Positions 6,623 through 31,842 of a stretch of DNA of 64,000 nt are shown one piece after another. The position numbers and the translations under genes were made by a program. This DNA comes from a virus. The stretch is taken from IMG/VR virus record IMGVR_UViG_3300034109_000283, positions 1 through 64,000 of that record; one strand, given 5' to 3'. The first letter of the stretch is position 1. Every line of letters starts with the position of its first letter. The notes beneath the pieces were generated by a model. The model saw nothing but the letters and a program-made list of their open reading frames with translations. It was not told the origin of the DNA and did not search any database.

Positions 6623-6628
6623 AATATT

Positions 6629-6704
6629 GGATCGTTAGCTCAGTTGGTAGAGCGGCGCCCTTACAAGGCGTAGGTCGGCGGTTCGAACCCGTCACGATCC
6701 ACCA
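6629..6704 (+). tRNA. tRNA-Val(TAC)
   Basis: Acceptor GGATCGT/ACGATCC, anticodon loop CTTACAA (TAC), T loop TTCGAAC, encoded ACCA. Confidence 0.96.
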
Positions 6705-6719
6705 ATAATAAATAATGTT

Positions 6720-6869: not shown

Positions 6870-6870
6870 T

Positions 6871-6944
6871 GCGGGTATGATGTAAAGGTAACCTGAATCC
6901 TTGCCAAGGATTATTTGCGAGTTCGATTCTCGCTACCCGCTCCA
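6871..6944 (+). tRNA. tRNA-Gly(GCC)
   Basis: Acceptor GCGGGTA/TACCCGC, anticodon stem AATCC/GGATT around TTGCCAA (GCC), T loop TTCGATT, U73 and CCA. Last tRNA of the array. Confidence 0.95.
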
Positions 6945-12974: not shown

Positions 12975-15900
12975 TTAAGCGTTAGGTGCTTTTATAACCA
13001 TAAATCTTATTGTTACTGCTTCATTGGCTGTACTAAATGTATCTATATTTTTTAAGTATAAATAAAATCCATTACCCACAAGGCTTGTAGGCAATGGAGT
13101 AACTAAATAACACCCATTGTGATAACTTACTACTTGAGCATATACAATATCAGTTGCAGGATCTACTTGATTGTTATTGACCACAATAGCATCTACTTGA
13201 TTTGGAACCATAACAGCACTTGTGGTGATGATAGTACCAGCTAAACTATTGATAGTTACACCTTGACTTCTGTTAGTAGTTTGAGTAACAGTAGAACCTG
13301 ATGCATAACCAATTTTACCAGTTGAAGTTAATGTACCAGTTACATTAGCACCAGTACCAGTAACTGTCATAGTTGTGTTACCAACTGCGGAAATAGTTAC
13401 ATTACCGTTTGCTGTTGCGATAGAAACATTACTATTACCGTTAGCGATGATAGATGATGATGGAATAGCAGCGAATGCACCGTTGCCTAACAGGACCTGA
13501 CTTGTGTTTCCATTCAAGTTGATAGTGGCGATATTACCAAATGCTGCCGAACCATTAGCAAATTTAATTGCCACTGCATTACCCGGTAGTGTCAAGTTAC
13601 CTGTGCTATCAAATGCCCAAGTGTTGATTGTACCAGTAGCATTGGTTTGAATAGTAGCGTTAGTAGCGTATGCTGATACGATACTAGTTGCAGCTCCTGC
13701 ATTAGTCATTGACAACAATTGTGCTGGGTTGTTTGTACCATTATCAACTGCCGCAATACCGATAGAAGCATTTGCTACTGTTTTAATGAATCCACCTGAT
13801 GAACCTGGAATAATCAAGTTACCAGTGCTATCAAATGTCCAAGTGTTTGAGTTGGCGTTGATAGTTACATTTGAGTTACCATTTGTGAATTGTAGTGCGC
13901 TTACGCTGCTAAATCCTCTGATGACTGGAGCAGGGCTTGCGCTTATTGCAACTAAGTCACCGGGTAATGTTAAGTTACCATCTACGCCAAAGGCCCATGT
14001 ATTAGTATTGGCTGTGATATTAACACTAGTATTAGCAGTTTCACTTATTTGGCTACCTTGAGGCAATGTTAATACACCGTCATTACCAAATGTCCAACTG
14101 TATTCAGTATTGCCGCCCGAGTTAGCCCAAATCTGAAGATTTGCTGTTGAACTAATTTCACCATCATCAGGATAAATCTTAATTGCGTCACCAGTGAAAC
14201 CAGTGAATATAGTATTAAGAGCCGAAATACCAAGATTAGCAGGACCTGCTAAACTAGCGTCAGTTGAAGTGATTGTAGGATTTGCACCACCGATAATATT
14301 TAAGATAGGATCAGTAGTATTAGGACCAGTATCACGCGGGAATACTAGAGTACCAGCAGTGTCAAATGTCCAAGTGTTGTTATTACTGTGAATGTATAAG
14401 TTAGGAACATTACCGTTATAATAACCTACTTCAAAACTTGATGCTTCACCACCTAAGAAGATATTAGCATCTGGTTCGTCAATATTTGCACCTGGTGCTC
14501 GTAAGTGAATATGACTTGGACCAGTTGGGTCAAGTACTAGTGACTGTGAACTAAGGAGAGCATCAGGTGTAAAGACCATTGTGCTGACATTTGGATATAA
14601 TGGCTCCGATGAACTGTTAGCGATACTTTGAATCACACTGTTGCCACCTGCTAATATTAAATTACCAGTTGTGTCAAGTGTCCAGGTATATGATGTGTTA
14701 CCATCATACGAACTCATAATGATATTGCCAGTGCTGCTTACTTGAACAAACTTATCATCATTACCTACAATCAAATCATATGCTTCACTATTACCCGTAT
14801 CAAAGTGAATATGACTTGCTACATCGCCCGCACGAACTTGCAAATATGCTAAGTTAGCAGTATAGTCTGGGCCGGCACTCAAGTTCAATTCATTGTCGCC
14901 CTGAACTGTTACGTCATCAAATGTCACATTGCCGAGTTGAGCAGCGCCAAGTGGTACTTGAGTACCGTTAGCATAGTTAACTGCGAAAGTATTGTCTGGT
15001 AAGGTTAGGTTGCCAGTACCGTCAAATGTCCAAGTGCCACCGTTACCATTAGCACTGCTAGGTATGTTTATTTGCACTCGGCCCGCTAATGCGTTTGCAC
15101 CAGCAAGACCGGTATTTAGAATGATTTCGCCACCACTATCACCATTGCCAGTACTATCACCGGCATTTATGGTTACATCACCGCCGCTAGCACCTAGGGC
15201 AATATTGCCACCGTTACCACCAGCATCGCCTGCACTAAATGTAAGAGAACCGCCACTTAACGCCTCGTAATTAGCAGAGGCTGCACCACCATCACCGGCT
15301 TCAATCCGAATAAATCCACCCGAACCACCAAAGTCAATATTAGATGCTCCGCCATTACCGGCTTCAATGATAACATCACCTCCTGATGTGTCACTATCTT
15401 CAGCAGAATCACCGGCAAAGATATTAATGTCACCACCTTCTGAGGTAGATCCTGTAGCACGATCACGGGCTTGTAGTGTGATATCGTCGGCTGAATATAG
15501 ATTAATATCTGCACTATTACCAGAAGCACGGTTGTCAATTTCTATTGTGCTTGATCCAATAATGTTCCCACTTAAATTAACATTACCTGCACCTATATTG
15601 CCTGTATATGTTGGAAGATATGCTGCAACATTACTATTTCCATAGTCTCCGTTTCCGCCGCCACCTGTTGCATTAATAGTGACAACACCGGTACCACTAG
15701 CACCAGTAGAAGTAATAGTTACACCAGTGCCTGCAAGAATTTGACTGACTCCGGAATCTATAGAGGTATACTGATTGATGACTTGATTGATAGGATTTAC
15801 AGTAATACGACCAGCAGTTGTATAAACAGTTGTAATATCTCCGGTATCATTATTAACTGATGAGTTAATTGTGACTGAGTTGCTACTTGTTGTTGTAGTG

Positions 15901-16103
15901 GACTGTGGGAAAATAACATCTTCACCTGATACTACAGGTGCTACGGCTCGGATTCCACTTGAAGTTACAGTGGGAGTTGTAGTTCCGCCCACTACCGTTG
16001 GATTAGAAGCGGGTTTAACAAGTGCCGTATCTGTTTGACGCTGAATTTGTCTTAAAATAGATGGGTCACTTCCGTTGACATTAGGTGCTGTATTTGCTGC
16101 CAT
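12975..16103 (-). CDS. Long repetitive tail-fibre-like protein
   Basis: A 1042-residue protein of low complexity (Asn, Gly, Thr, Ser). At least seven copies of a module like NTWTFDSTGNLTLPG are visible, plus a GGGDVTINAGDSTG-rich central region that looks like a beta-helix. The N-terminal ~40 residues may attach to the virion and the C-terminal ~100 residues (after TTNRSQGVTINSLAG) are a different, non-repetitive domain that may bind the receptor. Such architectures are typical of cyanophage and freshwater myovirus fibres. Receptor unknown. It shares a module with the 16196-17536 protein. Confidence 0.8.
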   Translation of the reverse strand: MAANTAPNVNGSDPSILRQIQRQTDTALVKPASNPTVVGGTTTPTVTSSGIRAVAPVVSGEDVIFPQSTTTTSSNSVTINSSVNNDTGDITTVYTTAGRITVNPINQVINQYTSIDSGVSQILAGTGVTITSTGASGTGVVTINATGGGGNGDYGNSNVAAYLPTYTGNIGAGNVNLSGNIIGSSTIEIDNRASGNSADINLYSADDITLQARDRATGSTSEGGDINIFAGDSAEDSDTSGGDVIIEAGNGGASNIDFGGSGGFIRIEAGDGGAASANYEALSGGSLTFSAGDAGGNGGNIALGASGGDVTINAGDSTGNGDSGGEIILNTGLAGANALAGRVQINIPSSANGNGGTWTFDGTGNLTLPDNTFAVNYANGTQVPLGAAQLGNVTFDDVTVQGDNELNLSAGPDYTANLAYLQVRAGDVASHIHFDTGNSEAYDLIVGNDDKFVQVSSTGNIIMSSYDGNTSYTWTLDTTGNLILAGGNSVIQSIANSSSEPLYPNVSTMVFTPDALLSSQSLVLDPTGPSHIHLRAPGANIDEPDANIFLGGEASSFEVGYYNGNVPNLYIHSNNNTWTFDTAGTLVFPRDTGPNTTDPILNIIGGANPTITSTDASLAGPANLGISALNTIFTGFTGDAIKIYPDDGEISSTANLQIWANSGGNTEYSWTFGNDGVLTLPQGSQISETANTSVNITANTNTWAFGVDGNLTLPGDLVAISASPAPVIRGFSSVSALQFTNGNSNVTINANSNTWTFDSTGNLIIPGSSGGFIKTVANASIGIAAVDNGTNNPAQLLSMTNAGAATSIVSAYATNATIQTNATGTINTWAFDSTGNLTLPGNAVAIKFANGSAAFGNIATINLNGNTSQVLLGNGAFAAIPSSSIIANGNSNVSIATANGNVTISAVGNTTMTVTGTGANVTGTLTSTGKIGYASGSTVTQTTNRSQGVTINSLAGTIITTSAVMVPNQVDAIVVNNNQVDPATDIVYAQVVSYHNGCYLVTPLPTSLVGNGFYLYLKNIDTFSTANEAVTIRFMVIKAPNA

Positions 16104-16131
16104 GAGCTAGTTTCCTTATTATAATTATAAT

Positions 16132-16139
16132 GTATTTAT
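16132..16139 (-). promoter_or_regulatory. Late-like promoter box ATAAATAC
   Basis: ATAAATAC on the minus strand, 28 bases before the fibre ATG at 16103, with AAGGAAA as ribosome-binding site between. Consistent with late expression of a fibre. Confidence 0.5.
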
Positions 16140-16144
16140 CGTGG

Positions 16145-16177
16145 AAATGGAAAAAGCCCTAAGGGCTTTTTCCATTT
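16145..16177 (-). terminator. Intrinsic terminator between the fibre genes
   Basis: A 16-base perfect inverted repeat (AAATGGAAAAAGCCCT and complement) with a one-base centre; AGGGC followed by TTTTT. It ends the 16196-17536 gene; symmetry means it could act in both directions. Confidence 0.9.
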
Positions 16178-16195
16178 TGAGCAATCTAAATCAGA

Positions 16196-17536
16196 TTACC
16201 AACTTGTTGTACCTGTGAACTTAGCCCAAGTATTTGTTGACACACATACATACAAGTTACCGCCCGTATCATATGCAGCCTGTCCTGCTGTTCCTGCACT
16301 TGTGTTTGCTACAGGAGCAGTAGTCCAAACTACAGTGTTTGCGTTGATAACTGGAAGAGCAACGAATGTACCATTGCCGGTTAGGACATTTGAAACGTTG
16401 CCGTCTAAGTTAGTAGCAACAATGTTTCCAAATGCGGCTGAACCATTAGCAAAGTTAATTGCTACAGTATTTCCGGGCAATTGTAAGTTACCATCATTGC
16501 CGAATGTCCATGTTGTAGTTCCGTTTGCAGTAATTGTGACATTACCGTTAGCGGTAGCAATATTAAGATTGCTATTACCATTTGATAGTGGTAAACCACC
16601 TCCACCGGCTTGTGCTACCCAAGCACCATTGCCTCCTAGTACTTGATTACCATTACCGTTTAGGTTGATACCAGCAATATTACCTAAACCAGTGACATTA
16701 CCTGCAGGTAAACCATGTGCAAACGCTAAATCACCTACAAAATAAGTCGCATCTACTCTTGATACTGTTAATATTCCGTCTGCTGGATTATATTGAAAAT
16801 CATCATCAATATCATTGTGTAATGTATAGTCATTAGGACCGGTTGTTAAAACCACATGATAACTAAAATTATTACTTACAGCTTCTACATAAACACTATT
16901 TGCAAATTCTGCATTTTGAACTGTGCCACTTACATTTGCCCCATTAATGTTAGATAAATTTCCACCGTCCCCGGTTAAACTAACTGATGGGCTAGCAGCA
17001 AACACGCCGTTACCATATAGTATATTGCTTGTATTGCCGTCTAAATTTAACTCAGCTATGTTTCCGATATTATTTGCAGAAATATTACCAGTAACGCTGA
17101 TGTTTCCTGCTGTTAAATTTCCTGTATATGTTGGTAAATAACTAGCAACATTACTGTTACCATAAGACGTACCATCTGCTACCCAACTTAAATTACCTGT
17201 ACCGTCGGTTCTTAAAATTTGTCCTACTGATCCGCCTAGTATTCTAACATTTGCAACACTACCTAAATTTACAGTGCCGCCTACAGTTAAGCTTGTTAAA
17301 GTACCAACACTTGTAATGTTTGGTTGTGCTGCATTGGTTACAGATTGAGAATAGATTGATGAATTTGCGCTAGGGAAACCGTTGCCTGCGTTGTTCAAAA
17401 TTAAGTTACCAACAATCTGCAAGTTTGCTTTTTGCGTTGTTGGAGTCCCTGCCATGTTAACTACTGGCACTAGTGTATTTTGATTTAAACTATTGCCGAT
17501 GTTTGTTAACTCAGTAATTTTTATTTGCGTTGTCAT
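16196..17536 (-). CDS. Tail-fibre-like repeat protein
   Basis: A 446-residue protein from the ATG at 17536 (AGGATAATAAAA upstream; 19 extra residues of the longer frame look spurious). It begins MTTQIKITELTNIGNSL, a pattern common in virion fibres, then Asn/Gly/Thr-rich repeats with GNISVTGNISANNIG and one WTFGNDGNLQLPG module. About 40 residues after that module match the corresponding part of the 1042-residue protein (ANGSAAFGNI, then GNGxF). The last 40 residues (YDTGGNLYVCVSTNTWAKF) resemble a small C-terminal cap seen in other fibres. Confidence 0.8.
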   Translation of the reverse strand: MTTQIKITELTNIGNSLNQNTLVPVVNMAGTPTTQKANLQIVGNLILNNAGNGFPSANSSIYSQSVTNAAQPNITSVGTLTSLTVGGTVNLGSVANVRILGGSVGQILRTDGTGNLSWVADGTSYGNSNVASYLPTYTGNLTAGNISVTGNISANNIGNIAELNLDGNTSNILYGNGVFAASPSVSLTGDGGNLSNINGANVSGTVQNAEFANSVYVEAVSNNFSYHVVLTTGPNDYTLHNDIDDDFQYNPADGILTVSRVDATYFVGDLAFAHGLPAGNVTGLGNIAGINLNGNGNQVLGGNGAWVAQAGGGGLPLSNGNSNLNIATANGNVTITANGTTTWTFGNDGNLQLPGNTVAINFANGSAAFGNIVATNLDGNVSNVLTGNGTFVALPVINANTVVWTTAPVANTSAGTAGQAAYDTGGNLYVCVSTNTWAKFTGTTSW

Positions 17537-17553
17537 TTTTATTATCCTATTTA

Positions 17554-18654
17554 TTATGCAAATGCTACACCGTTCTGTCCTATGCAATACCATTTACTGT
17601 TTATATATTGCAAGGTGCATCCATCACCTATATCACCGAATGTGATTGTACCTGTTCCTGATGTTTTCCATCCAGCGTTTGTGACTGTGATTACCATGTC
17701 ACCGCCGTCAGCTACCATCATAAATGTTTTGATTAATCCTGCGGTGCCAGCAGCTAATGTTGCTGTGCTAGCACCAGTTGTTGTAAAATAACTAGCCGTT
17801 ACTAATAAATTAGCAGCACTACCACTAGTTAAATTTTCACTACCACTTAAAGTAAGTTGACCAGTAACTGGAACATTTGCTTTTAATTCTATACCGATCG
17901 TTCCTGATGTTACCACTGGGCTACTGGTTACATTCAATGTTGAACTAGAAACCCCTACACTGGTAACTGTGCCACCTGCTAGTGTAGTAGAAACTGTAAC
18001 TTCTCCATTACTTCCACTTAGTAAAATACCAGTACCTGCACTTAACCGGGTTACACCGGTATTAGTAACTGTCATTGTTCCGCTGCTGGTTATTGGACTT
18101 CCTGTAACTTGTATTCCTGTGCCAGGAGTAATACCTACACTTGTAACTGTACCGACACTAGCACCATTGCTTGCCGCTGTTATTCTACCATACGAATCAA
18201 CAGTAAAAGTAGGATATGTATATTGTCCTGCAACTACACCCGTGGTCGTCAAGTCTAATGTTATACTACCTGCTCCGACAATGGGGTTACCTGCGGCTGT
18301 AATTCTTGCATTGCCTGCAGCACCAAAAACACTAATGCTAGTAACTGTTCCGCCACCGTTACCACCGCCACCAGTACTACTAATCGTAACTTGGCCATTG
18401 CTTCCACTTAAAACAACACCAGATCCTGCAACTAAAGAAGTTACTCCTGTGTTGGTTATCGTTACAATACCGGTAGTAGAATTTGCAGATGCAGAAATTC
18501 CTGCACCACTGTTAAAAGTGTTATATGGACTGGCACAAGCAAATAAATTGTTAAAATTTTGCTTTGTTTTGTTGAAGGCATCGTATAAACTGTCGCTGCC
18601 TACGGATTCATTGGGTAATCCTACATTAATTACTTGTTGTCCGGAAATCGCCAT
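17554..18654 (-). CDS. Tail-fibre-like repeat protein
   Basis: A 366-residue Gly/Thr/Ser/Val-rich protein beginning MAISGQQVINVGLPNESVGSD, a start typical of phage fibre or virion-attachment proteins. GTVTSVG occurs three times, and a unit (NTGVTSLVAGSGVVLSGSNG) is duplicated near residues 70 and 200. The C-terminus (GDGCTLQYINSKWYCIGQNG) carries two Cys in a strand-rich cap. It starts with a good GAGGAA ribosome-binding site below a late-type box, in the same direction as the other fibres. Confidence 0.78.
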   Translation of the reverse strand: MAISGQQVINVGLPNESVGSDSLYDAFNKTKQNFNNLFACASPYNTFNSGAGISASANSTTGIVTITNTGVTSLVAGSGVVLSGSNGQVTISSTGGGGNGGGTVTSISVFGAAGNARITAAGNPIVGAGSITLDLTTTGVVAGQYTYPTFTVDSYGRITAASNGASVGTVTSVGITPGTGIQVTGSPITSSGTMTVTNTGVTRLSAGTGILLSGSNGEVTVSTTLAGGTVTSVGVSSSTLNVTSSPVVTSGTIGIELKANVPVTGQLTLSGSENLTSGSAANLLVTASYFTTTGASTATLAAGTAGLIKTFMMVADGGDMVITVTNAGWKTSGTGTITFGDIGDGCTLQYINSKWYCIGQNGVAFA

Positions 18655-21494: not shown

Positions 21495-22067
21495 TTATTT
21501 ATTCAAAAATGGACGATAAATCTTTTCTAATTGTTTTATGGTTTCTGTAGCAGAGTTAGGATCCTCATGCTCATCTTCATGCTTGACTGCGATGCCACCG
21601 GCGTTTCGCCAAGCTTGCAAATATTTGCCAAAGTCATCTACTAAGACTTGAGGTTGTCCGTCCTTCATAGCATACTTGTACTTTTCACCAGTAAAAATAG
21701 CGTTACCTGAAGTTCCTGGATTGTATTGATCTAGCCAATCTTTTTTAGCTTCAATACTAGCATCGTTATATGGTCCTCTTAGAGGAGCACTTAAAACAGT
21801 AAATGGTATTTTATTTTGATGTAGCCAAGCTACAACTTTATTACCACCTTTTAAGGGCTTCAAATCTCTAAAAAAGTCATACACTTCTTTTGCTGAACTG
21901 TTTGCTAAAATCTCAATTTCTTTTTCTTTGTCATTGATTGCCTTCCAATGACCGACTTTATTTCTTTCAGCCCAGGCACCAAAGAAGTCAGCTTGCACCC
22001 CATCCATATCTAGATATAGATGTGGCATTTGTTTTAAATCTTCAAAAATAAAATCTTTAGCTCTCAT
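21495..22067 (-). CDS. HAD-family phosphatase, 5'-deoxynucleotidase-like
   Basis: A 190-residue protein with HAD motif I LDMDGVQADF near residue 19 (both Asp present), motif II in TVLSAP near 89, a Lys region and motif III VLVDDFGK near 142. The short cap is like phage/mitochondrial 5'(3')-deoxyribonucleotidases, which adjust dNMP pools. A substrate other than nucleotides cannot be excluded. Its start overlaps the TAA of the next upstream gene. Confidence 0.78.
   Translation of the reverse strand: MRAKDFIFEDLKQMPHLYLDMDGVQADFFGAWAERNKVGHWKAINDKEKEIEILANSSAKEVYDFFRDLKPLKGGNKVVAWLHQNKIPFTVLSAPLRGPYNDASIEAKKDWLDQYNPGTSGNAIFTGEKYKYAMKDGQPQVLVDDFGKYLQAWRNAGGIAVKHEDEHEDPNSATETIKQLEKIYRPFLNK
21496..21502 (-). 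promoter_or_regulatory. Late-like promoter box ATAAATA
   Basis: GAATAAATAAA on the minus strand, 18 bases before ATG 21477; overlaps the upstream stop codon, so chance occurrence is possible. Confidence 0.35.
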
Positions 22068-22471
22068 TAGTCATCTCCGGCAGCATCTTTAACTTCTTGT
22101 GCTGTTGCCTTTCGTCCTTTAGGACCGCCTATAGGTTTGTTAGCTTCTTCGGCTGCCCGTTTAGCTGCCTCTTCTTCTTTGCGCTTTTTAAACGGATCTT
22201 GGTTAATATCCTGTTCGGCAATCATACGCTCTTTTTCAATAGTTTTACCACGCAATTGCATGACTGTTTCAACTTTTTGATTGAGGCGTATCAAATCATT
22301 ATCTAACATTCTGATGCGGTCAATCAATGCTATCAGGGTGCCATTGGCTTGACCAATCACGGGTTTAATTTCTGTAGTTACCCACTTCCAAACAAAGTAT
22401 ACGAAATACCCCATACCGACTGCTGCGATAATGGGGAATCCGTATTTGTTTACTAAATCAACTAGATCCAT
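22067..22471 (-). CDS. Single-pass membrane protein with long cytoplasmic tail
   Basis: A 134-residue protein: MDLVDLVNKYGFPIIAAVGMGYFVYFVWKW has one membrane helix, then a heptad-like region (LIALIDRIRMLDNDLIRLNQKVE) and a highly charged Glu/Lys/Ala tail. The N-terminal plan (LVNKYGFPIIAAxGxGYFVYF) is shared with the 23019-23300 protein, so the two are paralogues. The layout recalls small holin-like or BhlA-type proteins, but function is not certain. Confidence 0.72.
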   Translation of the reverse strand: MDLVDLVNKYGFPIIAAVGMGYFVYFVWKWVTTEIKPVIGQANGTLIALIDRIRMLDNDLIRLNQKVETVMQLRGKTIEKERMIAEQDINQDPFKKRKEEEAAKRAAEEANKPIGGPKGRKATAQEVKDAAGDD

Positions 22472-22475: not shown

Positions 22476-22994
22476 TTATAGTATAAATGGTAACCACATC
22501 CATAGTGCCTGGCTTACGAATACAGACCCGACTGCTCCGACTACTACACTAATATAAAACATTGGCATACTAACAGCAAGAATACTAGCAGTTAGCAGAA
22601 CAATGGCGATCTGTAACACACTGCCGCCCCATGTAAACCAGGGTGACTTCTTGCGGGCTACCTCACGCTCGGCTTCGAGAGCCTTGGCCTTTTCCATAAT
22701 TTCTTTCTTGTCTGCTTCCATACGGGCAGCTTCGGCTTCAAACTTGGCTTTGTTTTCAGGAATCTTGGCCTCCATTGCGGATGTTTCATATAGAACTTGA
22801 CGCACATTTTTTGCTTGATACCAAGCCCACTGGTTATTAGCAGCAATTGTATTGTTCATAATTTTACTGCTATTTTGACCACCTATCATAGTATTGATAG
22901 CCAATAATGCTGCAAAGAACACAATAACAAAGCCTGCTTTGTCTTTAATTTTAGCTTCTTTTTCACTTCTTGAAAGTGGTTTTACCTCTGACAT
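22476..22994 (-). CDS. DUF4337-like membrane protein
   Basis: A 172-residue protein with a membrane helix near residues 20-42, a coiled region (NNQWAWYQAKNVRQVLYE, then Glu/Ala/Lys-rich helix) and two C-terminal helices ending in WMWLPFIL. The order helix / N-N-x-WAWYQAK / coiled coil / double helix matches DUF4337 proteins found in bacteria and phages. Function unknown. Good AAGGAAA ribosome-binding site. Confidence 0.75.
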   Translation of the reverse strand: MSEVKPLSRSEKEAKIKDKAGFVIVFFAALLAINTMIGGQNSSKIMNNTIAANNQWAWYQAKNVRQVLYETSAMEAKIPENKAKFEAEAARMEADKKEIMEKAKALEAEREVARKKSPWFTWGGSVLQIAIVLLTASILAVSMPMFYISVVVGAVGSVFVSQALWMWLPFIL

Positions 22995-23018: not shown

Positions 23019-23300
23019 TTAATCTTTTCTTTGGTCTGCTTGTTCTGCTCTTGACAAACGGTCATAATCAGGCTGTAATCCCAATGCATGACTGACTTTA
23101 ACATCAATTCTTTGTAATTGATTAGTCATGGTATCCACCCGAGCGTCAAGGCCCTTAATAATTCCGCCCATGCCGTTAACACTAGAAGTTACCCCGGCAA
23201 GTATAAATTTTAGTGTTAAAAACACGAAATATCCAGCCCCTAAAGCAGCAGCGATAGGGAATCCCAATTCAGCGATAAGTTTTAGCATGTCCATACGCAT
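23019..23300 (-). CDS. Small membrane protein, paralogue of 22067-22471
   Basis: A 93-residue protein with an N-terminal helix (LIAELGFPIAAALGAGYFVFLTLKFIL) and a heptad-like region (GLDARVDTMTNQLQRIDVKV). Three in-frame ATGs lie close together and none has a clear ribosome-binding site, so the exact start is open. The three genes 22067-23300 form a small membrane-protein cassette beside the curli island. Confidence 0.7.
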   Translation of the reverse strand: MRMDMLKLIAELGFPIAAALGAGYFVFLTLKFILAGVTSSVNGMGGIIKGLDARVDTMTNQLQRIDVKVSHALGLQPDYDRLSRAEQADQRKD

Positions 23301-23346: not shown

Positions 23347-23718
23347 ATGGACGGTATTGTCATAATGCTATTGCTCCAAATAAAGCATTGGTATGCTGAT
23401 TTTTGGATTCAAACATATCATCAAACGGTTTATAAAGGCGTTTATGGGAATCCTGTGGGTATCAGTCATACATTAGAACATACCATTGGAACAGTTTTAG
23501 CATTGCTGATAGCTAACAGTTTTGTTCCTATATCAGTCTCCGTGATTATCTTACTATCGCTTTTGGATTTTATAATCCACTATCATGTTGATTTTGTCAA
23601 AGTTAAATATGGCATTAAAGACAATAAAACCACAAGATACTGGCGAGAGTTTGGTCTAGACCAACTTGCACACCAGCTTACATACATTTTAATAACCTAC
23701 ATTATAATTAGTCGTTGA
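23347..23718 (+). CDS. DUF3307-like membrane protein
   Basis: A 123-residue multi-helix protein. KHWYADFWIQT and ISHTLEHTIGTVLALLIA carry conserved-type His residues in membrane-helix context, and FGLDQLAHQLTYILITYI another. The His-rich helix pattern resembles DUF3307 membrane proteins known from bacteria and phages. It is the first (+) gene of the island and lies upstream of the csgF control region. Ribosome-binding site not evident; a downstream ATG is possible. Confidence 0.65.
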   Translation: MDGIVIMLLLQIKHWYADFWIQTYHQTVYKGVYGNPVGISHTLEHTIGTVLALLIANSFVPISVSVIILLSLLDFIIHYHVDFVKVKYGIKDNKTTRYWREFGLDQLAHQLTYILITYIIISR

Positions 23719-23719: not shown

Positions 23720-23776
23720 ATTACTCCCCAGTTTTATATAAATACAAGTATACTAAAAACTAAATTTGGGAGTAAT
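23720..23776 (+). promoter_or_regulatory. Inverted repeat able to mask the csgF ribosome-binding site
   Basis: ATTACTCCC (23720-23728) is the exact complement of GGGAGTAAT (23768-23776), which contains the Shine-Dalgarno sequence just before ATG 23779. The late promoter box 23737-23744 lies between the arms. Read-through RNA would hide the site; RNA started at the late box would lack the masking arm. Confidence 0.65.
23737..23744 (+). promoter_or_regulatory. T4-late-like promoter box TATAAATA for the curli genes
   Basis: Exact TATAAATA followed by C, 34 bases before the csgF-like ATG, with predicted start near 23751. Best-placed late box in the window because of the flanking inverted repeat. 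Confidence 0.65.
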
Positions 23777-23778: not shown

Positions 23779-24249
23779 ATGAAAAGAATCCTATTAGGAT
23801 TGTTGTTCATGCCGGTTGTAGCATCTGCACAACTTGTACAACAGTTTAAAAATCCGGCTTTCAATAGCCAGGGTTGGAGCAGCCATGCACTTACGATTGA
23901 TAGTATAGAAAAAAGTCGCAAGGATGCTATAGCTGCCGAGAAAAAGGCTGAGTTAGCAGCATTAGAAGCAGCAGCACAAAATACACCTTTAGCTAGATTT
24001 ATGAATTTGTTCAGCAGCCAAGTGTATGCGCAACTTGCTACTCAATTAAGTAATAATTTATTTCAGAACAAATGTGCTGGAGTAGCCGGGCCTATTCCGG
24101 GTTGTGTCAATCCAACTACCGGACAGTTTCAATTAGACGGCAATACGGTTACATGGGTTAAAACAGATAAAGAAGTAACATTAACTGTTGTTGATGCCAA
24201 AGGTACAATCACAATTGTTAAAGTACCTATAGCAAGTTTTGGATTCTAA
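23779..24249 (+). CDS. csgF: CsgF-like curli assembly factor
   Basis: A 156-residue secreted protein with a signal peptide (MKRILLGLLFMPVVASA). QLVQQFKNPAFNSQGW at the mature N-terminus corresponds to the CsgF segment that inserts in the CsgG pore. A helix with SQVYAQLATQLSNNLF follows, and the C-terminal strands TVTWVKTDKEVTLTVVDAKG end in a VPIASFGF-type tail typical of CsgF. CsgF sits at the outer-membrane CsgG channel and couples curlin secretion to surface nucleation. Length is slightly above the usual ~138. Ribosome-binding site GGGAG lies in a hairpin arm. It is directly followed by csgG. Confidence 0.85.
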   Translation: MKRILLGLLFMPVVASAQLVQQFKNPAFNSQGWSSHALTIDSIEKSRKDAIAAEKKAELAALEAAAQNTPLARFMNLFSSQVYAQLATQLSNNLFQNKCAGVAGPIPGCVNPTTGQFQLDGNTVTWVKTDKEVTLTVVDAKGTITIVKVPIASFGF

Positions 24250-24250
24250 T

Positions 24251-25063
24251 ATGAAATATACTAAAATATTAATTGCGTGTTTATCAGCCTTAGCATTTAC
24301 TGGATGTAGTACTATAAGACCTATGCAGGATTTAGAAAGAACTACGGAACCTAGAATTGCTGAAAATATTAATGAAAGTTTTAAGGATGTTGCAGCGCCT
24401 GCAGGCCCACCAGTTGTAGTGGCTGTGTATGGCTTCAAGGATCTGACAGGACAGCGTAAGCCTAGCACTACACTAAGCAGTTTCAGCAGTGCAGTTACAC
24501 AAGGCGCTGAAAGTTATCTAATTAAGAGTTTACAGGAAGTTGGCAACCGTCAGTGGTTTACTGTAGTTGAGCGTGTTGGTCTAGACAATCTGTTAAAAGA
24601 GCGTCAAATGATCAAACAAACCCGTGAAATCTATGATGGTGCCAATGCTAAGATGTTACCTCCTCTTGCACTAGCCGGAGTTATACTAGAAGGTGGAATC
24701 ATTGATTACAATAGTCATACATTAACAGGCGGTACTGGTGCTCGTTGGTTAGGTATTGGACCATATACACAGTATACCCAAGATTTAGTTGTTATCAGTA
24801 TGCGTTTAGTAAGTGTTCAAACCGGTGAAGTACTAACCACCGTAACCGTTGAAAGAGACCTACTAAGCACCGGAGAAGGTATAACAGCTTTAAGATTTTT
24901 CAATCAAGCAACTAAAGCTTTTGAATTTGACAGTAGCCAAACATACAACGAACCCGGCAACTATGCATTGCGTAGTGCCATAGAAACTGGGGTTGTTGAA
25001 TTGATTCGCAAAGGAGAACGTCAGGGCCTTTGGAAGTACAAAACACCTGACACTAAAAAATAA
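24251..25063 (+). CDS. csgG: CsgG curli secretion channel lipoprotein
   Basis: A 270-residue lipoprotein: signal peptide with lipobox FTGC (Cys19), then the CsgG domain including VVVAVYGFKDLTGQRKP, WFTVVERVGLDNLLKERQ, GGIIDYNSHTLTGGTGARWLGIG and the YTQDLVVISMRLV strand series. Length and order match CsgG, the nonameric outer-membrane pore that exports curlin subunits. The ATG at 24251 is one base after the csgF stop; a TTG 12 bases earlier is less likely. Base composition is phage-like (AT-rich), which argues for long residence in the phage. Confidence 0.95.
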   Translation: MKYTKILIACLSALAFTGCSTIRPMQDLERTTEPRIAENINESFKDVAAPAGPPVVVAVYGFKDLTGQRKPSTTLSSFSSAVTQGAESYLIKSLQEVGNRQWFTVVERVGLDNLLKERQMIKQTREIYDGANAKMLPPLALAGVILEGGIIDYNSHTLTGGTGARWLGIGPYTQYTQDLVVISMRLVSVQTGEVLTTVTVERDLLSTGEGITALRFFNQATKAFEFDSSQTYNEPGNYALRSAIETGVVELIRKGERQGLWKYKTPDTKK

Positions 25064-25087
25064 TAATAACAAGGGAGTATTCCTCAT

Positions 25088-25882
25088 ATGAAATTTAATA
25101 AAATATTTGCAGCAGCAATATTATCTTTAAGTGGGTTATCTGCATTTGCGCAAACTGCCGTGACACCACCCACTGCACCCACTGTTCCCAACACAGTAAC
25201 AGTTAGTCCCAATGCTACCACAGCATTGGGTAACAGCACAACCAACCGCATCTTTATTGATCAAAGTGGTTCCAATCCTGATGTGAACATGACACAAGAT
25301 GGCAGTGGCAACAAGCAAGGAAGCGCACAAAGACCCATTTACTTGCGTGGTGCTGATCAGGTGATCATCACTCGTCAGATTGGCAACAACAATGAGATAG
25401 ACTTAGAAGTTTCCAATCCCACAACAGGAGCCAGTGTGGGTGCCAAAGTTACCATTCAACAGATTGGCAACAGCAACAAAGTTGATGCAGCTTGCGGATA
25501 TGGTAACAGCAGCACTGGCACAGCTCTAACAGGTTGCAAGAATGCTGACTTGAACTGGAAGTTCACTGGCAACAGCAATGAGTTTCAGTTCCGTGCCAGT
25601 GGTGACGACATTCGCAGTGCTGTCACAGTAGCAGGCAATGGCAACAAGTTCTGGATTGACGCTGTGGGCAACAAGCACAGTCAGACTCTAATGGTAACTG
25701 GTGACAACAATGAATTCAATCTAAGTCAAACCAGTACTGGCAGTGCTGGCAGCAGCATCTGGATTGATCAGACTGGCACTGGCACCAAGTTCTTTGTGGC
25801 TCAAAGTGGAACTGTTGACAACGTTCTGAACATCAAGAGTGTTGCAACAGGAGGAACCTTTAATATAGTTCAGAAGAACTAA
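25088..25882 (+). CDS. Curlin-repeat amyloid subunit (CsgA/CsgB-like)
   Basis: A 264-residue secreted protein with a signal peptide ending in SAFAQ. About eight degenerate curlin repeats follow, of the type V.I.QIGNNNEID or VTIQQIGNSNKVD, rich in Gln, Asn, Gly and Ser. Curlin repeats stack as a beta-solenoid and polymerise outside the cell. It has two extra Cys and a Pro/Thr-rich linker after the signal. GC content is higher than in csgF and csgG. A good GGGAG ribosome-binding site precedes it. Whether it is the major fibre or the nucleator is unknown. Confidence 0.88.
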   Translation: MKFNKIFAAAILSLSGLSAFAQTAVTPPTAPTVPNTVTVSPNATTALGNSTTNRIFIDQSGSNPDVNMTQDGSGNKQGSAQRPIYLRGADQVIITRQIGNNNEIDLEVSNPTTGASVGAKVTIQQIGNSNKVDAACGYGNSSTGTALTGCKNADLNWKFTGNSNEFQFRASGDDIRSAVTVAGNGNKFWIDAVGNKHSQTLMVTGDNNEFNLSQTSTGSAGSSIWIDQTGTGTKFFVAQSGTVDNVLNIKSVATGGTFNIVQKN

Positions 25883-25890
25883 GGATCATT

Positions 25891-27141
25891 GTGAAGCGAC
25901 TACTTGTGGCCTTGTGTGGGCTAGTACTAAGCACAAGTGTACTAGCCAATGTGGGTTCTGTAGCAGAACTCACGGGCACAGCCGTGATCAAGCGAGGCAA
26001 AACCACTGTACCAGTGACAAATGGCACAGTGGTTGAAATGAATGACCGAGTAGAAACTAAAAACGGTAAACTGAAAATTGTTTTCCGTGATAAAACCACT
26101 GTTAGTGTCACTGAAAGTAGTGCATTAGACATAGATGAGTTTGTGTATGATCCGAAAAATGCTGGTGCAGGCAAACTAGGTATAAAAGCTGCGGCGGGCA
26201 CAGTACGATATGTCAGTGGTGCTATTGCTGGCGCTAATCCCAACGCTGTAAACATCAAAACACCCACAGCAGCCATCGCAGTTCGTGGTACAGATTTTGT
26301 CATGAGTGTGAATGAGATCGGTGGTAGCATGATTATCTTGATGCCACAGTGTGAGGAGCATGGTGTAAATGTTCGTGGCATGATATGTGGTAGTGGCCGG
26401 ATAGATGTTGAAAGTGGCGGAACAGTGGTGAACATGTCCAGACCCTATCAAGCCACACTAGTAGAAAAAACAGGCTCACCACCTAGTCCGCCCATTACAG
26501 TAAATCTATTCAATACACCAATTAGTAATAACTTGCAAATAGCTCCACCCAGAACCATGAGTGGTGGCAGTGTGGTAGCAGCAGCCCGGGCAGCAGTAGC
26601 ACAAACTAGCAGTGGTGTTCGCAGTGCTGCAAGATCAAGTAGTGGCAGTGGTAGTTCAAGTGGCAGTAGTGGTTCAAGTGGCGGCGGAGCAGAACCTGCA
26701 GCAGCAAGCGATGCACCTCCAGCAGAGGCTGTTGTAGCCAGCGAATCAAATAAACCTGAAACGGTCGCCAGTAAAAGCGAAGAAACAACGACAGCAGTAG
26801 AAGCACCCAGTAATATCGTGTCTCTTGAACCAGTGCTTGAGCTAGTTACTAAAACAACAGAATCTGCCAAAGATGAAAAAGCTGAACCCGCACCAACTGT
26901 GACAACCACTGAAACTAAAAGCGATGAAGATGCCAATCTCAGAAAGATTTATAGTGGAGCTTCACAATCAGGATGGGGCTACGAAAGTTTGAGTAAAACC
27001 AGTCGTAACTATGCCAACATTGTGTTGCCTATCAATACTGCCATACAAATTTACATAGTTCAAGATAACATGGTTGCTGCTAAAAACTTTAGCAGTGGTC
27101 GCCCACAAGGGCAAATAGTAATCAATCAGACATTCAGATGA
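25891..27141 (+). CDS. Secreted FecR-domain protein
   Basis: A 416-residue protein starting at GTG 25891 after AAGGA. A signal peptide (to STSVLA) precedes a FecR domain: GKLKIVFRDKTTVSVTESSAL, GKLGIKAAAGTVRYVSGAI, and VNIKTPTAAIAVRGTDFVM are the classic blocks. After residue ~200 comes a low-complexity Ser/Gly/Ala/Glu linker and a C-terminal ~60-residue domain. FecR domains bind periplasmic or surface ligands and act in signalling or assembly. In many proteobacteria FecR proteins neighbour CHASE2 cyclases. The stop overlaps the next ATG (ATGA). Confidence 0.9.
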   Translation: MKRLLVALCGLVLSTSVLANVGSVAELTGTAVIKRGKTTVPVTNGTVVEMNDRVETKNGKLKIVFRDKTTVSVTESSALDIDEFVYDPKNAGAGKLGIKAAAGTVRYVSGAIAGANPNAVNIKTPTAAIAVRGTDFVMSVNEIGGSMIILMPQCEEHGVNVRGMICGSGRIDVESGGTVVNMSRPYQATLVEKTGSPPSPPITVNLFNTPISNNLQIAPPRTMSGGSVVAAARAAVAQTSSGVRSAARSSSGSGSSSGSSGSSGGGAEPAAASDAPPAEAVVASESNKPETVASKSEETTTAVEAPSNIVSLEPVLELVTKTTESAKDEKAEPAPTVTTTETKSDEDANLRKIYSGASQSGWGYESLSKTSRNYANIVLPINTAIQIYIVQDNMVAAKNFSSGRPQGQIVINQTFR

Positions 27142-28961
27142 AACTCTTACTAGCATTCATATTACTGTTGTTTTCAAATTTCAGTCAGGCAGCTTTTACT
27201 GACATAAAGTTTGGCCGCTATCAAGTAGCCGACAGTCAGTGGAATGTGAGTGCCTGCTTGAATACAACCACTTGCCAGATATACAGCAAGAATCCAGGAA
27301 CTATGTACAAGATACCCTGGACCAGTGGCCAGTGGAGTTGGCAAACTGGGCAGTATGTTCAGTTCAGCCTAAGTGGTAACGCCAGCTTTCCCTATGAAGG
27401 CAAAGTGTATAATAGTAACGGCACCTTAGCAGGTACTATAGGCATTGGCAAGATAGTAAACATGGGCCCTGACTATTTCTTCTTTGTGGGCAGTGACAAT
27501 AACACAGGTCAATTGTTCAGCGGTAGTAGTGGCATGAGTAACACCAGTGGTGTTAGTTGGACAGGAACATTGAATCCTACAACAGCACAAGCAGATGCTT
27601 ATGCTGATGCAAGTTATAGCACAGTGCCTTTAGCGGCAGGACAAACTGCTACAGTAACTCCCAGTTCATCTAATACACCTGCACCCAACCCCAGACCAGT
27701 TTGGCCTGTGATCAATCGTGCCGCCAATCAAGTTCAGTTTGGCAGTGGTCGCACTGGTGGCTGGAGTACATACTGGCAAGATTGTTGTGGCAGTGGAGGC
27801 GGAACATGGGGGTCAATAAATTATGGTGGCAATGGAAACAGTTCAGCACAATTTTGGGCTACAACATATATGCGTTGGCCAGGAGCAGACAATGGGGTAA
27901 GCAGAACCATATGGTTTAGAACGGGTCTGGATGACGCCCATCAATTACGAATAAATGGTCAACTGGTCACTAGTGGTGGTTGCTGTAGTTGGGCATATGG
28001 GTCATATACTGCCAAGCCTGGCGAAATTGTAAAACTTGAGTTCTACAGTAATAACTCTGGCGGCAATGACTGGGTATTTCAGGTTGCCTGGGATCCGCAA
28101 GGTGATGGTAGTTATGAATTACTAGACAGCAACACAGTCGCACTACAAAGTGCCACAGATGGTGGTGGCGGTTTCTGGTACGGCAGCGGTATAACCACAG
28201 ATCAAACTAATATCATGAACAGTGCCAGAACACGCACAGGAGCTGTAGCACTGGGCAATCGCATTGACCTAGAACAAAAAATAGGCACTAGTGGCAGTGT
28301 AGTTACAATAGAACAGACTGGTAACTATAATTTGATTCAGGGGTTAGGTGGCGGCAATGCCATCATTGATGGTCAGAACAACACACTAAACATCAAGCAA
28401 GGTGACACATTGGGTCGTAACTTGATTGAATTGGGTGTATACGGAAATACCAATACTGTTACAGTAAATCAAGCCCGTAATACTACCACTGGGTTGCAAG
28501 ATGGCAGCGAAAGCGGCGGACATTATGCTGGCTTAGGCGTCAATGGTAATAGTAACACAGTCACAATTAGACAGGGCAATGATGGTGGTATCAGTAGCGG
28601 ACATTTCGGTTTAATGTACATCAAGGGTGATACCAACAACATGTCACTTACACAAGCCAACAACAATGACAAGAGAGCATTTATTAGTGTTGATGGTAAC
28701 AATAATAATAGCATATTATCGCAATCAGGTTTGGGCAACCACTATATTGACTTAATGATGACTGGCAACGGTCACACAGCCAACATCACACAGTCAGGAA
28801 ATGCCACACATAGAGCCACAATCAACTTGACCAATGCCGGCGGTTCAAGCATTCTAAACTTGATTCAGCAAGGTAGTACAGCACAACAATACAGTATTGT
28901 GCAGCAATGTGCTAACTTACAGGGCTGTAGTGTTACTGTAACACAAGGCAATGGACCGTAA
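27138..28961 (+). CDS. Large curlin-repeat surface protein with PA14-like domain
   Basis: A 607-residue secreted protein with a signal peptide (to FSQAA). Residues ~20-150 form a beta-rich domain. A Pro-rich linker leads to a PA14-like lectin-type domain (~200-335) with FRTGLDDAHQLRINGQLV and VKLEFYSNNSGGNDWVFQVAWD. From ~390 to the end are roughly eight curlin-type repeats (VVTIEQTGNYNLI, NTVTVNQARN, NTVTIRQGND, SVTVTQGNG). It would be built into or onto the amyloid fibre and could give it a binding head. Translation is coupled to the FecR gene. I know of no standard csg name for it. Confidence 0.82.
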   Translation: MKLLLAFILLLFSNFSQAAFTDIKFGRYQVADSQWNVSACLNTTTCQIYSKNPGTMYKIPWTSGQWSWQTGQYVQFSLSGNASFPYEGKVYNSNGTLAGTIGIGKIVNMGPDYFFFVGSDNNTGQLFSGSSGMSNTSGVSWTGTLNPTTAQADAYADASYSTVPLAAGQTATVTPSSSNTPAPNPRPVWPVINRAANQVQFGSGRTGGWSTYWQDCCGSGGGTWGSINYGGNGNSSAQFWATTYMRWPGADNGVSRTIWFRTGLDDAHQLRINGQLVTSGGCCSWAYGSYTAKPGEIVKLEFYSNNSGGNDWVFQVAWDPQGDGSYELLDSNTVALQSATDGGGGFWYGSGITTDQTNIMNSARTRTGAVALGNRIDLEQKIGTSGSVVTIEQTGNYNLIQGLGGGNAIIDGQNNTLNIKQGDTLGRNLIELGVYGNTNTVTVNQARNTTTGLQDGSESGGHYAGLGVNGNSNTVTIRQGNDGGISSGHFGLMYIKGDTNNMSLTQANNNDKRAFISVDGNNNNSILSQSGLGNHYIDLMMTGNGHTANITQSGNATHRATINLTNAGGSSILNLIQQGSTAQQYSIVQQCANLQGCSVTVTQGNGP

Positions 28962-28974: not shown

Positions 28975-31032
28975 ATGAAAAAAATCTTATTAAATCCCTG
29001 GACAGCACTTGCCACCCTCGTAATTGTGTTATTCGTCCGTATGTTAGATCCTACATTTGTAGAAAGTGTAAGGTTACGCTATTTTGATACACTAATTACT
29101 AGCCAACCGGATAAACCTGTCAGTGTTAGTGTTGTCAACATAGATGAAGCTAGTTTAGACAAGTATGGACAGTTTCCATTTCCAAGAGATGTATATGCTC
29201 AAATAATACAGGACATTTATAAACGAAACGCAGGATTAGTTGTATTCAATGTATTGATGCCTGAAAAGGACAGATTTAACAAAGATACCGTTTTAGCTCA
29301 AACATTAGAAAAAAATCCAGTTGTATTACCTGCATTAGGTAGCACTAAGAGTAAAAATACTGATGTTGGTAGCGCAGTTCAAATTGTTGGAAAAAATGTA
29401 GAAGGCAGTCTAGTACAGTACCCTGGATACATTACATCAGTTAATGAAATATCTGATAAGGCTGCAGGAGTTGGTATCGTTAATACTTTTCCAGAAGTTG
29501 ACGGTGTTGTTCGTCGCATGCCATTAGTTATTATTGCAGGAGAAAATGTTCACCCTGCACTATCATTAGAAGCATTGAGAGTTATAGCACAAGATACAAA
29601 AATTCAAGTTAAAATTTCAGAGTTGGGCGTTGAAGCATTGCGTATTCCAAATTTTGCAAAAATCAAAACAGACAATTTAAGTCGTATATGGATAGATTAT
29701 AGTGGTAAACCCGAGCAGTATAGTTTAGTTGATATGCCAAAAGATTTTGAAGGCAAAGTTGTTGTGGTTGGTTTAAGTGCAGCTGGATTAGTAAATCCTG
29801 TGCCAACAAGTCGCGGAGAAATATGGCCACAAGAACTACAAGCCAGTGTAATGGGAACCATCTTAAATGATACAGTAATCAGTCGTCCTAATTATGCCAA
29901 TGAGTTAGAAATACTTGCAATATTAGTTGCAGGTATATTATTGATATTCTTAATGAGGTGGACATATGTTGGTATTGCGGCAACAGTTGTTACGGTTGGT
30001 GGTGTTATTGTTGGTAGCATCTATGCTTACAGTAACTTTTTATTCTTATTTGATAGTACTGCCTTCGCAGTTGGCGTTGGATTGGTCGCTCTGCACGCCT
30101 ACATGGTCAAGTTCGTATCAGAATTCTTACAGAAACAGCAAATAAGAAAACAGTTCCAAAGTTATCTAAGCCCTGACTTAGTTGCTAAGTTAATCAAAGA
30201 TCCTAGTTTATTAAAACTAGGCGGTGAGGAAAAAGAACTGTCTATTATGTTTACTGATGTTCGCGGATTTACATCAATCTCTGAACATTATGGTCGTGAT
30301 GTACAAGGACTTACTAGCATCATGAACCGTTATATGACTGCCATGACTAGAACTATTCTAGAAACAGGTGGCACATTAGACAAGTACATCGGTGACGCAC
30401 AAATGGCATTCTGGAATGCACCATTAGATGAAACTAAGCACTGCAAAGATGCTGTTAAAGCCGCGTTAGAAATGTTAGGAAGTTTAGATGGGTTTAATGC
30501 AGGTATTAAAGAAGAAGGGGTTCCTCCATTCGGTATGGGCATTGGTATTAACACTGGTGTTGTTGTGGTTGGCAATATGGGTAGTGAGCAACGCTTTGAC
30601 TATACTTGCCTTGGCGACGCTGTTAATTTGGCTAGTCGTTTAGAAGGTCAATCTAAGAACTATGGCGTACTAATTGTTCTTGGTCCTGTGACTGCTGAAC
30701 GGTTAGGTGATGAATACTTTACATTAGAATTAGATTGTATTGCTGTTAAGGGTAAAAAAGAAGGTGTTAATATCTATACAGTATTCTACAATCCTTCAAC
30801 AAATGTTGAAATGGTAAAATGGAAAACAGCAAAAGAGTTACATGAATTAATGTTAGCTTATTATCGCAAACAACAGTGGGATAAGGCAATAGAATTGATA
30901 CACAGCCTTAAGGGAGAATTTAGTGGCGGCATGGATAATTATTATGATCTATGGCTTGAAAGAGTTGAAGAAATGCGCAATGCTAATTTACCAACTGATT
31001 GGGACGGAGTGTTCCGGGCTACAAGTAAATAA
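28975..31032 (+). CDS. CHASE2-domain class III adenylate cyclase
   Basis: A 685-residue membrane protein. An N-terminal helix precedes a large periplasmic CHASE2 domain (~35-310; VSVVNIDEASLDKYGQFPFPR). Two or three membrane helices follow (~315-380), then a class III cyclase domain from ~415: MFTDVRGFTSIS with the metal Asp, LDKYIGDAQMAFW with the second metal Asp and adenine-selecting Lys, and FDYTCLGDAVNLASRLEG with the transition-state Asn/Arg. Lys plus Thr suggests ATP as substrate. The expected product is cAMP, controlled by an envelope signal, perhaps through the neighbouring FecR protein (inference). Confidence 0.92.
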   Translation: MKKILLNPWTALATLVIVLFVRMLDPTFVESVRLRYFDTLITSQPDKPVSVSVVNIDEASLDKYGQFPFPRDVYAQIIQDIYKRNAGLVVFNVLMPEKDRFNKDTVLAQTLEKNPVVLPALGSTKSKNTDVGSAVQIVGKNVEGSLVQYPGYITSVNEISDKAAGVGIVNTFPEVDGVVRRMPLVIIAGENVHPALSLEALRVIAQDTKIQVKISELGVEALRIPNFAKIKTDNLSRIWIDYSGKPEQYSLVDMPKDFEGKVVVVGLSAAGLVNPVPTSRGEIWPQELQASVMGTILNDTVISRPNYANELEILAILVAGILLIFLMRWTYVGIAATVVTVGGVIVGSIYAYSNFLFLFDSTAFAVGVGLVALHAYMVKFVSEFLQKQQIRKQFQSYLSPDLVAKLIKDPSLLKLGGEEKELSIMFTDVRGFTSISEHYGRDVQGLTSIMNRYMTAMTRTILETGGTLDKYIGDAQMAFWNAPLDETKHCKDAVKAALEMLGSLDGFNAGIKEEGVPPFGMGIGINTGVVVVGNMGSEQRFDYTCLGDAVNLASRLEGQSKNYGVLIVLGPVTAERLGDEYFTLELDCIAVKGKKEGVNIYTVFYNPSTNVEMVKWKTAKELHELMLAYYRKQQWDKAIELIHSLKGEFSGGMDNYYDLWLERVEEMRNANLPTDWDGVFRATSK

Positions 31033-31035: not shown

Positions 31036-31064
31036 TTGACTCATTGGTAAAAATATGTTATACT
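31036..31064 (+). promoter_or_regulatory. sigma70-like promoter for the PBP-like gene
   Basis: TTGACT, 17 bases, TATACT, placed 4 bases after the cyclase stop and 20 bases before ATG 31084. This gene can therefore be expressed separately from the curli genes. Confidence 0.8.
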
Positions 31065-31083: not shown

Positions 31084-31842
31084 ATGCTACGATCATTATA
31101 CAAAATATTTTTTATTGGTATACTACTTTCCTTATTTCCTAGCTGGGGCAGAGCCGATCCTCTGCCCAACATCACCGCGCAAGCCTGGTTAATTGCTGAT
31201 GTAAATGGTAATATTTTACAAGGTTCTAACACAACTGATGTCCGTAGTATAGCAAGTATTACAAAATTAATGACTGTGATGGTTGTTATTGATGCACAAC
31301 AAGACCTCAATGAAGTTGTCACCAAGAAGTTATTCAATAAAAATCTAACTAGAATGGATCTTATTGATTTAGCAATCGTTAAATCAGATAATGAAGCTTC
31401 AAAAATATTATGTGACAAGTACCCGGGTGGGTACAAAAGTTGCGTTCAGGCTATGAATGATAAGGCGCGTGGATTGCAAATGTACAATACCAGCTTTACT
31501 GATCCAACTGGAAGAATGCATGACAATGTAAGCACTGCTCAAGACTTAATAAAATTAGTTATAGCCTCTAGCTCTTATCAAGTAATTGTTGATGCTAGCA
31601 AAAAGGATCATTTAAGTTACTCAACAGGAAAAAGAAATTCTATAGTATTCAACAATACTAATAATTTAGTCGGAAAAGGTTACGATTTTATTGTCACTAA
31701 AACCGGCTTCATAAACAAAGCAGGTGGCTGCATTGTGTTTATGATAGACACTGTTCGTGGAGTAAGAACTGTGATTGTATTGGGAAGTAAAAATACTAGA
31801 ACTAGAATCCCCGAAGCTTTCTTGTTATCTACATTATACTGA
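31084..31842 (+). CDS. D-Ala-D-Ala carboxypeptidase/endopeptidase-type serine hydrolase
   Basis: A 252-residue secreted protein of peptidase family S11 (PBP5/PBP7 type). A signal peptide ends near SWGRA, then SITK (58-61, nucleophile Ser), SDN (101-103) and KTG (206-208) give all three penicillin-binding motifs at normal spacing. It should cleave D-Ala-D-Ala or DD-crosslinks in periplasmic peptidoglycan. No C-terminal amphipathic anchor is visible, so it resembles soluble PBP7/PbpG. In a phage it could loosen the wall for lysis, for curli export or for injection control; which one is unknown. Confidence 0.9.
   Translation: MLRSLYKIFFIGILLSLFPSWGRADPLPNITAQAWLIADVNGNILQGSNTTDVRSIASITKLMTVMVVIDAQQDLNEVVTKKLFNKNLTRMDLIDLAIVKSDNEASKILCDKYPGGYKSCVQAMNDKARGLQMYNTSFTDPTGRMHDNVSTAQDLIKLVIASSSYQVIVDASKKDHLSYSTGKRNSIVFNNTNNLVGKGYDFIVTKTGFINKAGGCIVFMIDTVRGVRTVIVLGSKNTRTRIPEAFLLSTLY

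Follow-up and report, generated by a model that had tools for sequence, protein, structure and literature searches.

A phage curli operon with a chimeric second curlin: exchangeable heads on a conserved export and fibre chassis

The window analysed here is a stretch of 64,000 nucleotides of virus DNA (positions 1 to 64,000 of IMG/VR record IMGVR_UViG_3300034109_000283) that carries a curli, or type VIII secretion, operon starting at position 23779. Sequence comparison across relatives identified the second curlin of this operon as a chimera, in which a conserved curlin domain is preceded by exchangeable N-terminal heads. From its anatomy, we give about an even chance to the locus being a complete, late-expressed phage operon that coats the infected cell with adhesive amyloid of swappable binding specificity. 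The broader proposal is that phage curli form a modular adhesion machine, in which the export and fibre chassis is constant, the heads of the chimeric subunit are traded like tail-fibre tips, and the late operon includes two hitherto unrecognised small membrane proteins. This is tentative, with a chance that we place slightly short of even.

Five genes, encoding CsgF, CsgG, a first curlin (CR1), a FecR-domain protein and a second curlin (CR2), are contiguous on the plus strand between 23779 and 28961, as an earlier, sequence-only reading of the window had stated. CsgF (23779-24249, plus strand) carries a signal peptide followed by the mature N-terminus QLVQQFKNPAF, and passed PF10614 with 35.6 bits (cutoff 25.8). 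CsgG, the outer-membrane lipoprotein pore (24251-25063, plus strand), keeps its lipobox cysteine and full-length domain (PF03783, 157.6 bits; cutoff 20.8) and aligned with E. coli CsgG over its full length at 149 bits. The listed TTG start of CsgG at 24239 is probably wrong because the relatives begin at the methionine at 24251, and the start was corrected accordingly. At the constriction of the pore, the tyrosine and asparagine of E. coli CsgG are replaced by serine, while the phenylalanine is retained. CR1 (25088-25882, plus strand) passed PF07012 (23.1 bits; cutoff 20.7), matched the CsgB model weakly (E 2.6e-7, under the cutoff of that model) and was headless throughout the relatives examined. 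The components by which type VIII secretion is recognised, namely a complete CsgG pore domain with its lipobox, CsgF and at least one curlin-repeat subunit, were all present. The initial match lists for 'bacterial' csgG relatives consisted mostly of phage contigs within bins of metagenome-assembled genomes. A Salmonella 'phage' record with csgG (OR851715) was set aside, being a poorly covered, unannotated fragment of 1.5 kb.

The surroundings are those of a phage, as previously claimed: the 108 kb virus contig to which the window belongs holds the rIIA, rIIB, DNA ligase, DNA polymerase and PhoH families. The right edge drawn by the sequence-only reading at 28961 was too short, as the conserved unit continues into a CHASE2-adenylate cyclase gene (28975-31032, plus strand) that belongs to the curli module; the cyclase had been overlooked, as had the adhesin heads and a pair of small membrane proteins. 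A search for the same neighbourhood in related phages recovered an identical gene order in about 50 independent contigs and in the cultured phages HTVC008M and Melnitz. The G+C content of 0.44-0.46 across about 25-29 kb exceeds that of the flanks, which would fit bacterial DNA wrongly joined to that of a phage. Misassembly is nevertheless excluded, since dozens of contigs of independent origin and two cultured phages show this gene order, and the bacterial curli loci examined had neither FecR nor adenylate cyclase as neighbours; the chance that the island is an assembly artefact is negligible.

CR2 (27138-28961, plus strand) consists of a head A (residues 20-172), a head F (201-335) and a curlin domain at about residues 378-607. 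CsgF, CsgG, CR1 and the FecR protein were all recovered above curated Pfam cutoffs, but CR2 of the window had no Pfam curlin match and was assigned as a curlin by a family profile; the CR2 proteins of several relatives pass PF07012. The family profile of its C-terminal 230 residues reached E 5e-23 against 8c50, a curlin-repeat protein of solved structure, and E 0.0014 against E. coli CsgA (8enq). This domain is common to some 60 relatives and shows the invariant Q/G/N ladder of curlins. Its AlphaFold2 model presented regular strands with a predicted template modelling score of 0.79; the HTVC008M row was left out of the alignment used for structure prediction. As Foldseek found no significant PDB match for the model (E at least 0.12), the curlin identity of CR2 rests on sequence profiles.

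Among the loci of the first scan, the curlin domain of CR2 was constant at about 200-240 residues, while the N-terminal heads ranged from 0 to about 540 residues and occurred in the combinations A+F, A+C, A+B, B+C, D+C, D+A, H+A, E and none. In relatives, head C passed the Pfam cutoff for F5/8 type C, a galactose-binding-like domain (37-42 bits), and head E that for PA14 (52.5, 51.3, 27.7 and 34.2 bits). For the window, AlphaFold predicted head A with good confidence (predicted local distance difference test mostly 84-92) and head F with modest confidence; no carbohydrate-binding domain was detected in head A by Pfam or by fold similarity. Gp018 of HTVC008M, annotated as hypothetical, is a PA14-curlin fusion, and the CR2 of Melnitz is headless. 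In locus L180, also marine, an unrelated head is joined to a very similar curlin domain, so that the marine relatives repeat the pattern. This further marine head type (L128:10643-12091, L180:3600-4925) had no Pfam match and is possibly an alpha/beta fold.

The distribution of the heads was compared with that of the chassis. Loci L047 and L048 are 98% identical across 12 kb and encode identical CsgG proteins, yet they carry different CR2 heads. The window and L029 share head A at 87% identity and CsgG at 74%, whereas L042 and L036 share CsgG at 83% and head A at only 43%. A minimum of 27 changes of CR2 architecture was counted on the CsgG tree, which is a quick tree on which the 'none' class includes unclassified heads. 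Judged from these alignments, the CR2 heads move independently of the curli chassis. Heads A and F were absent from the other genes of the fetched loci, beyond which most virion genes lie.

The statement of the sequence-only reading that no phage curli system had been described was wrong. The HTVC008M record is annotated with CsgF, CsgG and curlin; Zaragoza-Solas et al. (2020; PMC7029224) described the operon from CsgF/CsgG clusters of pelagimyophages and put forward 'sibling capture'; and Buchholz et al. (2022; PMC9004378) discussed the curli operon of Melnitz, with the pore as a lysis regulator. A further study (2022, mSystems; PMC9599517) describes modules of podo- and myophages that hold CsgF, CsgG, two curlins, FecR and adenylate cyclase, and supports them with marine metatranscripts. 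Amyloid export by the infected cell under phage control remains the best reading of the gene anatomy; the novelty claimed for it does not survive the 2020 and 2022 papers. A curli operon in a phage is a published kind. What goes beyond those papers is the exchange of heads on CR2, the pair of small membrane proteins and the motif before csgF; of the first two we found no description. The words PA14, discoidin and lectin do not occur in the main text of PMC9599517, nor is the PA14-curlin fusion of HTVC008M noted there.

The published module order, CsgF-CsgG-curlin-FecR-curlin-cyclase, is found in the window as in HTVC008M, Methylophilales phage Melnitz and HTVC023P-type podophages (PMC7029224, PMC9004378, PMC9599517). 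Identity to these operons was 37-38% for the cyclase and 44-47% for CsgG. Unlike them, the window belongs to a jumbo-size, freshwater-type group and a probable Burkholderiaceae phage; its CR2 bears heads A+F, in contrast to the headless CR2 of Melnitz and the PA14-curlin of HTVC008M, its small membrane genes are divergent from csgF, and its neighbours encode DUF3307 and S11 proteins. With the bacterial systems (csgBAC/csgDEFG of E. coli and relatives) the operon shares the CsgG pore, CsgF and curlin repeats, but it differs in the added FecR protein and CHASE2-cyclase, in the headed second curlin and in the lack of CsgE and CsgC on the phage contig. In the six bacterial curli loci that were read, the curlins had no recognised head and there was no FecR or cyclase neighbour.

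Two small membrane proteins, S134 (134 residues; 22067-22471, minus strand) and S93 (93 residues; 23019-23300, minus strand), belong with the curli module by their co-occurrence with it. They are paralogues, each with one hydrophobic transmembrane helix and a predicted coiled coil, and matched phrog_18771 with 116.7 and 101.7 bits, respectively; S93 reached up to 93% identity between phages. The pair was found in exactly 6 of 50,697 phage records, which are the six with an annotated curli operon. In the reverse test, on 52 IMG/VR loci with S93/S134 and at least 9 kb on both flanks, csgG lay within about 10 kb in 44 and another curli gene in four. Among the four exceptions, one shares its contig with a curli locus (L276/L010), two have no trace of curli genes, and one (L389:10614-11000) keeps S93/S134 beside a fused remnant of the CsgF N-terminus and the cyclase C-terminus, which indicates that the stretch from csgF to the cyclase was naturally deleted as one block. 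The two genes lie directly upstream of csgF in HTVC008M, Melnitz, L055-L081 and the 35-43 kb contigs, whereas they are divergent from csgF in the window. The association is not universal: of 120 marine loci that extend at least 3 kb upstream of csgG, 82 have two such genes there, and one clade lacks S93/S134 at the position upstream of csgF. In two loci (L232:5194-6400, L245:5721-6413), heme oxygenase and ferredoxin-dependent bilin reductase genes were observed just upstream of csgF, and S93/S134 were absent from roughly the nearest 3 kb on that side.

In PMC9599517, the position immediately ahead of csgF is assigned to 'a histidine kinase, sometimes two'. In HTVC008M, Melnitz and the 35-43 kb contigs this position, by which the published gene was identified, is held by S93/S134 proteins of 79-134 residues, and a Pfam search at E<1 gave no kinase domain for the window proteins; proteins of this size without kinase domains cannot be histidine kinases. 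The co-occurrence with the operon calls for re-annotation of what was given that name. A holin role is possible: both proteins resembled the 'holin' family phrog_4898 weakly (E 0.013 for S93 and 0.039 for S134), and neither had a Pfam holin match.

Late expression of the operon is suggested by the position of a T4-late-promoter-like motif, TATAAATA (23737-23744, plus strand), 35 nt before csgF. Within the window this motif was found seven times against 6.2 expected, with no enrichment; as the count is near expectation, the motif is uninformative in the window alone and only its position across relatives is informative. Its core, TAAATA, is also that of the T4 late promoter TATAAATA and the cyanophage motif NATAAATA (PMC2984593). 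TAAATA was present within 80 bases before csgF in 46 of 52 relatives, mostly 26-36 bases upstream, compared with 3.3% of random 70-mers. Before the other module genes it was found in 12/52 loci for CR1, 0/53 for csgG, 0/51 for fecR, 0/46 for CR2 and 1/33 for the cyclase. In two sets of loci it preceded S93 in 20/24 and 28/28, and S134 in 2/26 and 0/28. The loci with TAAATA are related, yet the bases around the motif vary widely.

The FecR-domain protein (25891-27141, plus strand; PF04773, 38.2 bits, cutoff 24) has a signal peptide, then the FecR domain, and no further transmembrane segment. It therefore departs from the layout of FecR anti-sigma regulators (cytoplasmic anti-sigma region, transmembrane helix and periplasmic FecR domain), and with no sigma gene in the curli module it has no extracytoplasmic function sigma partner there. 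A curlin-like hairpin at its C-terminus was considered and rejected (hhalign probability 2.5). The cyclase joins a CHASE2 periplasmic sensor to a class III adenylate cyclase domain (PF05226, 143 bits; PF00211, 71 bits; phrog_35576, 779 bits). Aligned with CyaB, it retains the active-site motifs FTDVRGFT, DKYIGD and FDYTCLGDAVNLASRLE, with the two metal-binding aspartates, the lysine/aspartate pair for ATP specificity and the asparagine/arginine pair, which identify it as a predicted class III enzyme. An exported FecR-domain protein is also found beside a CHASE2 sensor in the Burkholderia BiofilmReg operon (FecR/LysM protein and CHASE2 histidine kinase), which is linked to biofilm; unlike the phage module, with its adenylate cyclase output, that operon acts through a histidine kinase and response regulator and has no curli genes (PMC5192318). 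In relatives, cargo genes for a PstS-like binding protein, a RimK ATP-grasp protein, a phosphoesterase and a glycosyltransferase were seen between CR2 and the cyclase (L030:14086-15075, L046:16429-17313, L053:15940-17977).

The DnaK protein of the contig suggests a Burkholderiaceae host. Its identity to DnaK of that family is 71-76%, with a partial match reaching 81%; it does not exceed 73% for the wider class sample and is 59-66% for Alphaproteobacteria. CsgF was detected in only 4 of 151 Burkholderiaceae genomes, so the phage would usually bring a function that its host lacks. DnaK belongs to a large protein-quality-control set on the phage contig, together with ClpS, Hsp20, a ClpB-like ATPase and a DnaJ-like protein (L085:11531-13408, L086:13217-16281, window 47069-47860).

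The sequences establish the genes and their order, the homologies, the exchange of heads, the motif positions and the intact cyclase active site; in the model that follows we infer expression, secretion, fibre formation, ligand and benefit. CsgF and CsgG would form an outer-membrane pore through which unfolded CR1 and CR2 are exported; CR1, as a plain curlin, would build the fibre core, and CR2 would present the exchangeable heads outward, which are of carbohydrate-binding types where they can be recognised. The exported FecR protein and the CHASE2 domain of the cyclase may act as a periplasmic signalling pair that converts envelope state into cyclic AMP, a pairing with a precedent in the Burkholderia biofilm operon (PMC5192318). 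Shortly before lysis, the infected cell would be covered in adhesive amyloid, which would glue it to neighbours or particles bearing the ligand of the head, and progeny would be released beside new hosts. Adhesion of the dying cell is the likely benefit.

Several observations weigh against this model. Heads A and F of the window belong to no Pfam family, and the nearest Foldseek matches of head F (PA14 of an RTX adhesin, a fungal lectin, Flo1 and CBM35) are weak (E 0.03-0.09). Export through CsgG may be difficult for large heads that contain paired cysteines. Melnitz cultures showed no clumping (PMC9004378); as the CR2 of Melnitz is headless, this is no test of the headed form and only a weak counterweight. 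In favour of the model, domain-CsgA fusions made in the laboratory do pass through CsgG (PMC9477280), and engineered fusions with nanobodies or trefoil factors (PMC9477280, PMC6898321) resemble CR2 in placing a functional domain on a curlin, although the CR2 heads are natural and traded between phages. Neither the CsgE gate, which counts against the model, nor CsgC was found on the 108 kb contig, which is a fragment and may be incomplete. The CsgE gate and CsgC are not universal outside Gammaproteobacteria. PMC9599517 reports that phage modules, like the alphaproteobacterial type, lack CsgC, CsgD and CsgE, and CsgE and CsgC are thus not defining for curli as a whole.

Other roles for the operon were also considered. 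CsgG might instead serve as a gated pore for lysis, pinholin- or secretin-like, with S93/S134 as holin-like partners, the DD-endopeptidase as a helper and the curlins as secondary. The late-type motif before csgF and S93, the holin resemblance and the S11 endopeptidase adjoining the module are consistent with this role, which Buchholz et al. proposed for Melnitz (PMC9004378). However, their proposal relied on the absence of csgA/csgB, and both curlins are annotated in Melnitz; the holin resemblance falls far short of significance, the endopeptidase is an accessory present in 7 loci, and a curlin with exchangeable heads is left unexplained by a pore, which makes a lysis module unlikely. Masking of the phage receptor by the amyloid coat or its heads, leading to superinfection exclusion, is put forward in PMC9599517; phages often alter host surfaces, and heads that can be exchanged might keep pace with receptors or competitors. 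Against it, exclusion under a late-type promoter motif would act late, and we find this role similarly doubtful.

A pore that raises outer-membrane permeability to feed replication, with the fibres incidental, has been suggested in PMC7029224 and PMC9599517 and would suit a contig with no CsgE gate. It leaves the two conserved curlins, CsgF and the head exchange unexplained, and is quite improbable. The role of phage curli has been a puzzle since 2020, in part because their subunits were believed to be absent or plain. The headed curlin offers a specific and testable reason for the operon, namely what the heads bind, and cultured HTVC008M with its PA14-headed CR2 is a starting point for testing the heads.

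Three further genes lie around the module. A DUF3307 membrane protein (23347-23718, plus strand; PF11750, 31.5 bits, cutoff 23) is the usual neighbour upstream of csgF in the phage group (50 loci). A DUF4337 membrane protein (22476-22994, minus strand; PF14235, 113.6 bits) is accessory and lies between CR2 and the cyclase in L002. The S11 DD-endopeptidase of PBP7 type (31084-31842, plus strand; PF00768, 127 bits; NF008668, 161 bits, under the equivalog cutoff) has its own sigma-70-like promoter at 31036-31064 and also follows the cyclase in L004/L005. Elsewhere in the window, three large open reading frames (1042, 465 and 366 residues; 12975-18654) had no Pfam or PHROG match, and the left end (83-6944) holds a cluster of 13 tRNA genes by ARAGORN, for which Rfam lists 15 matches.

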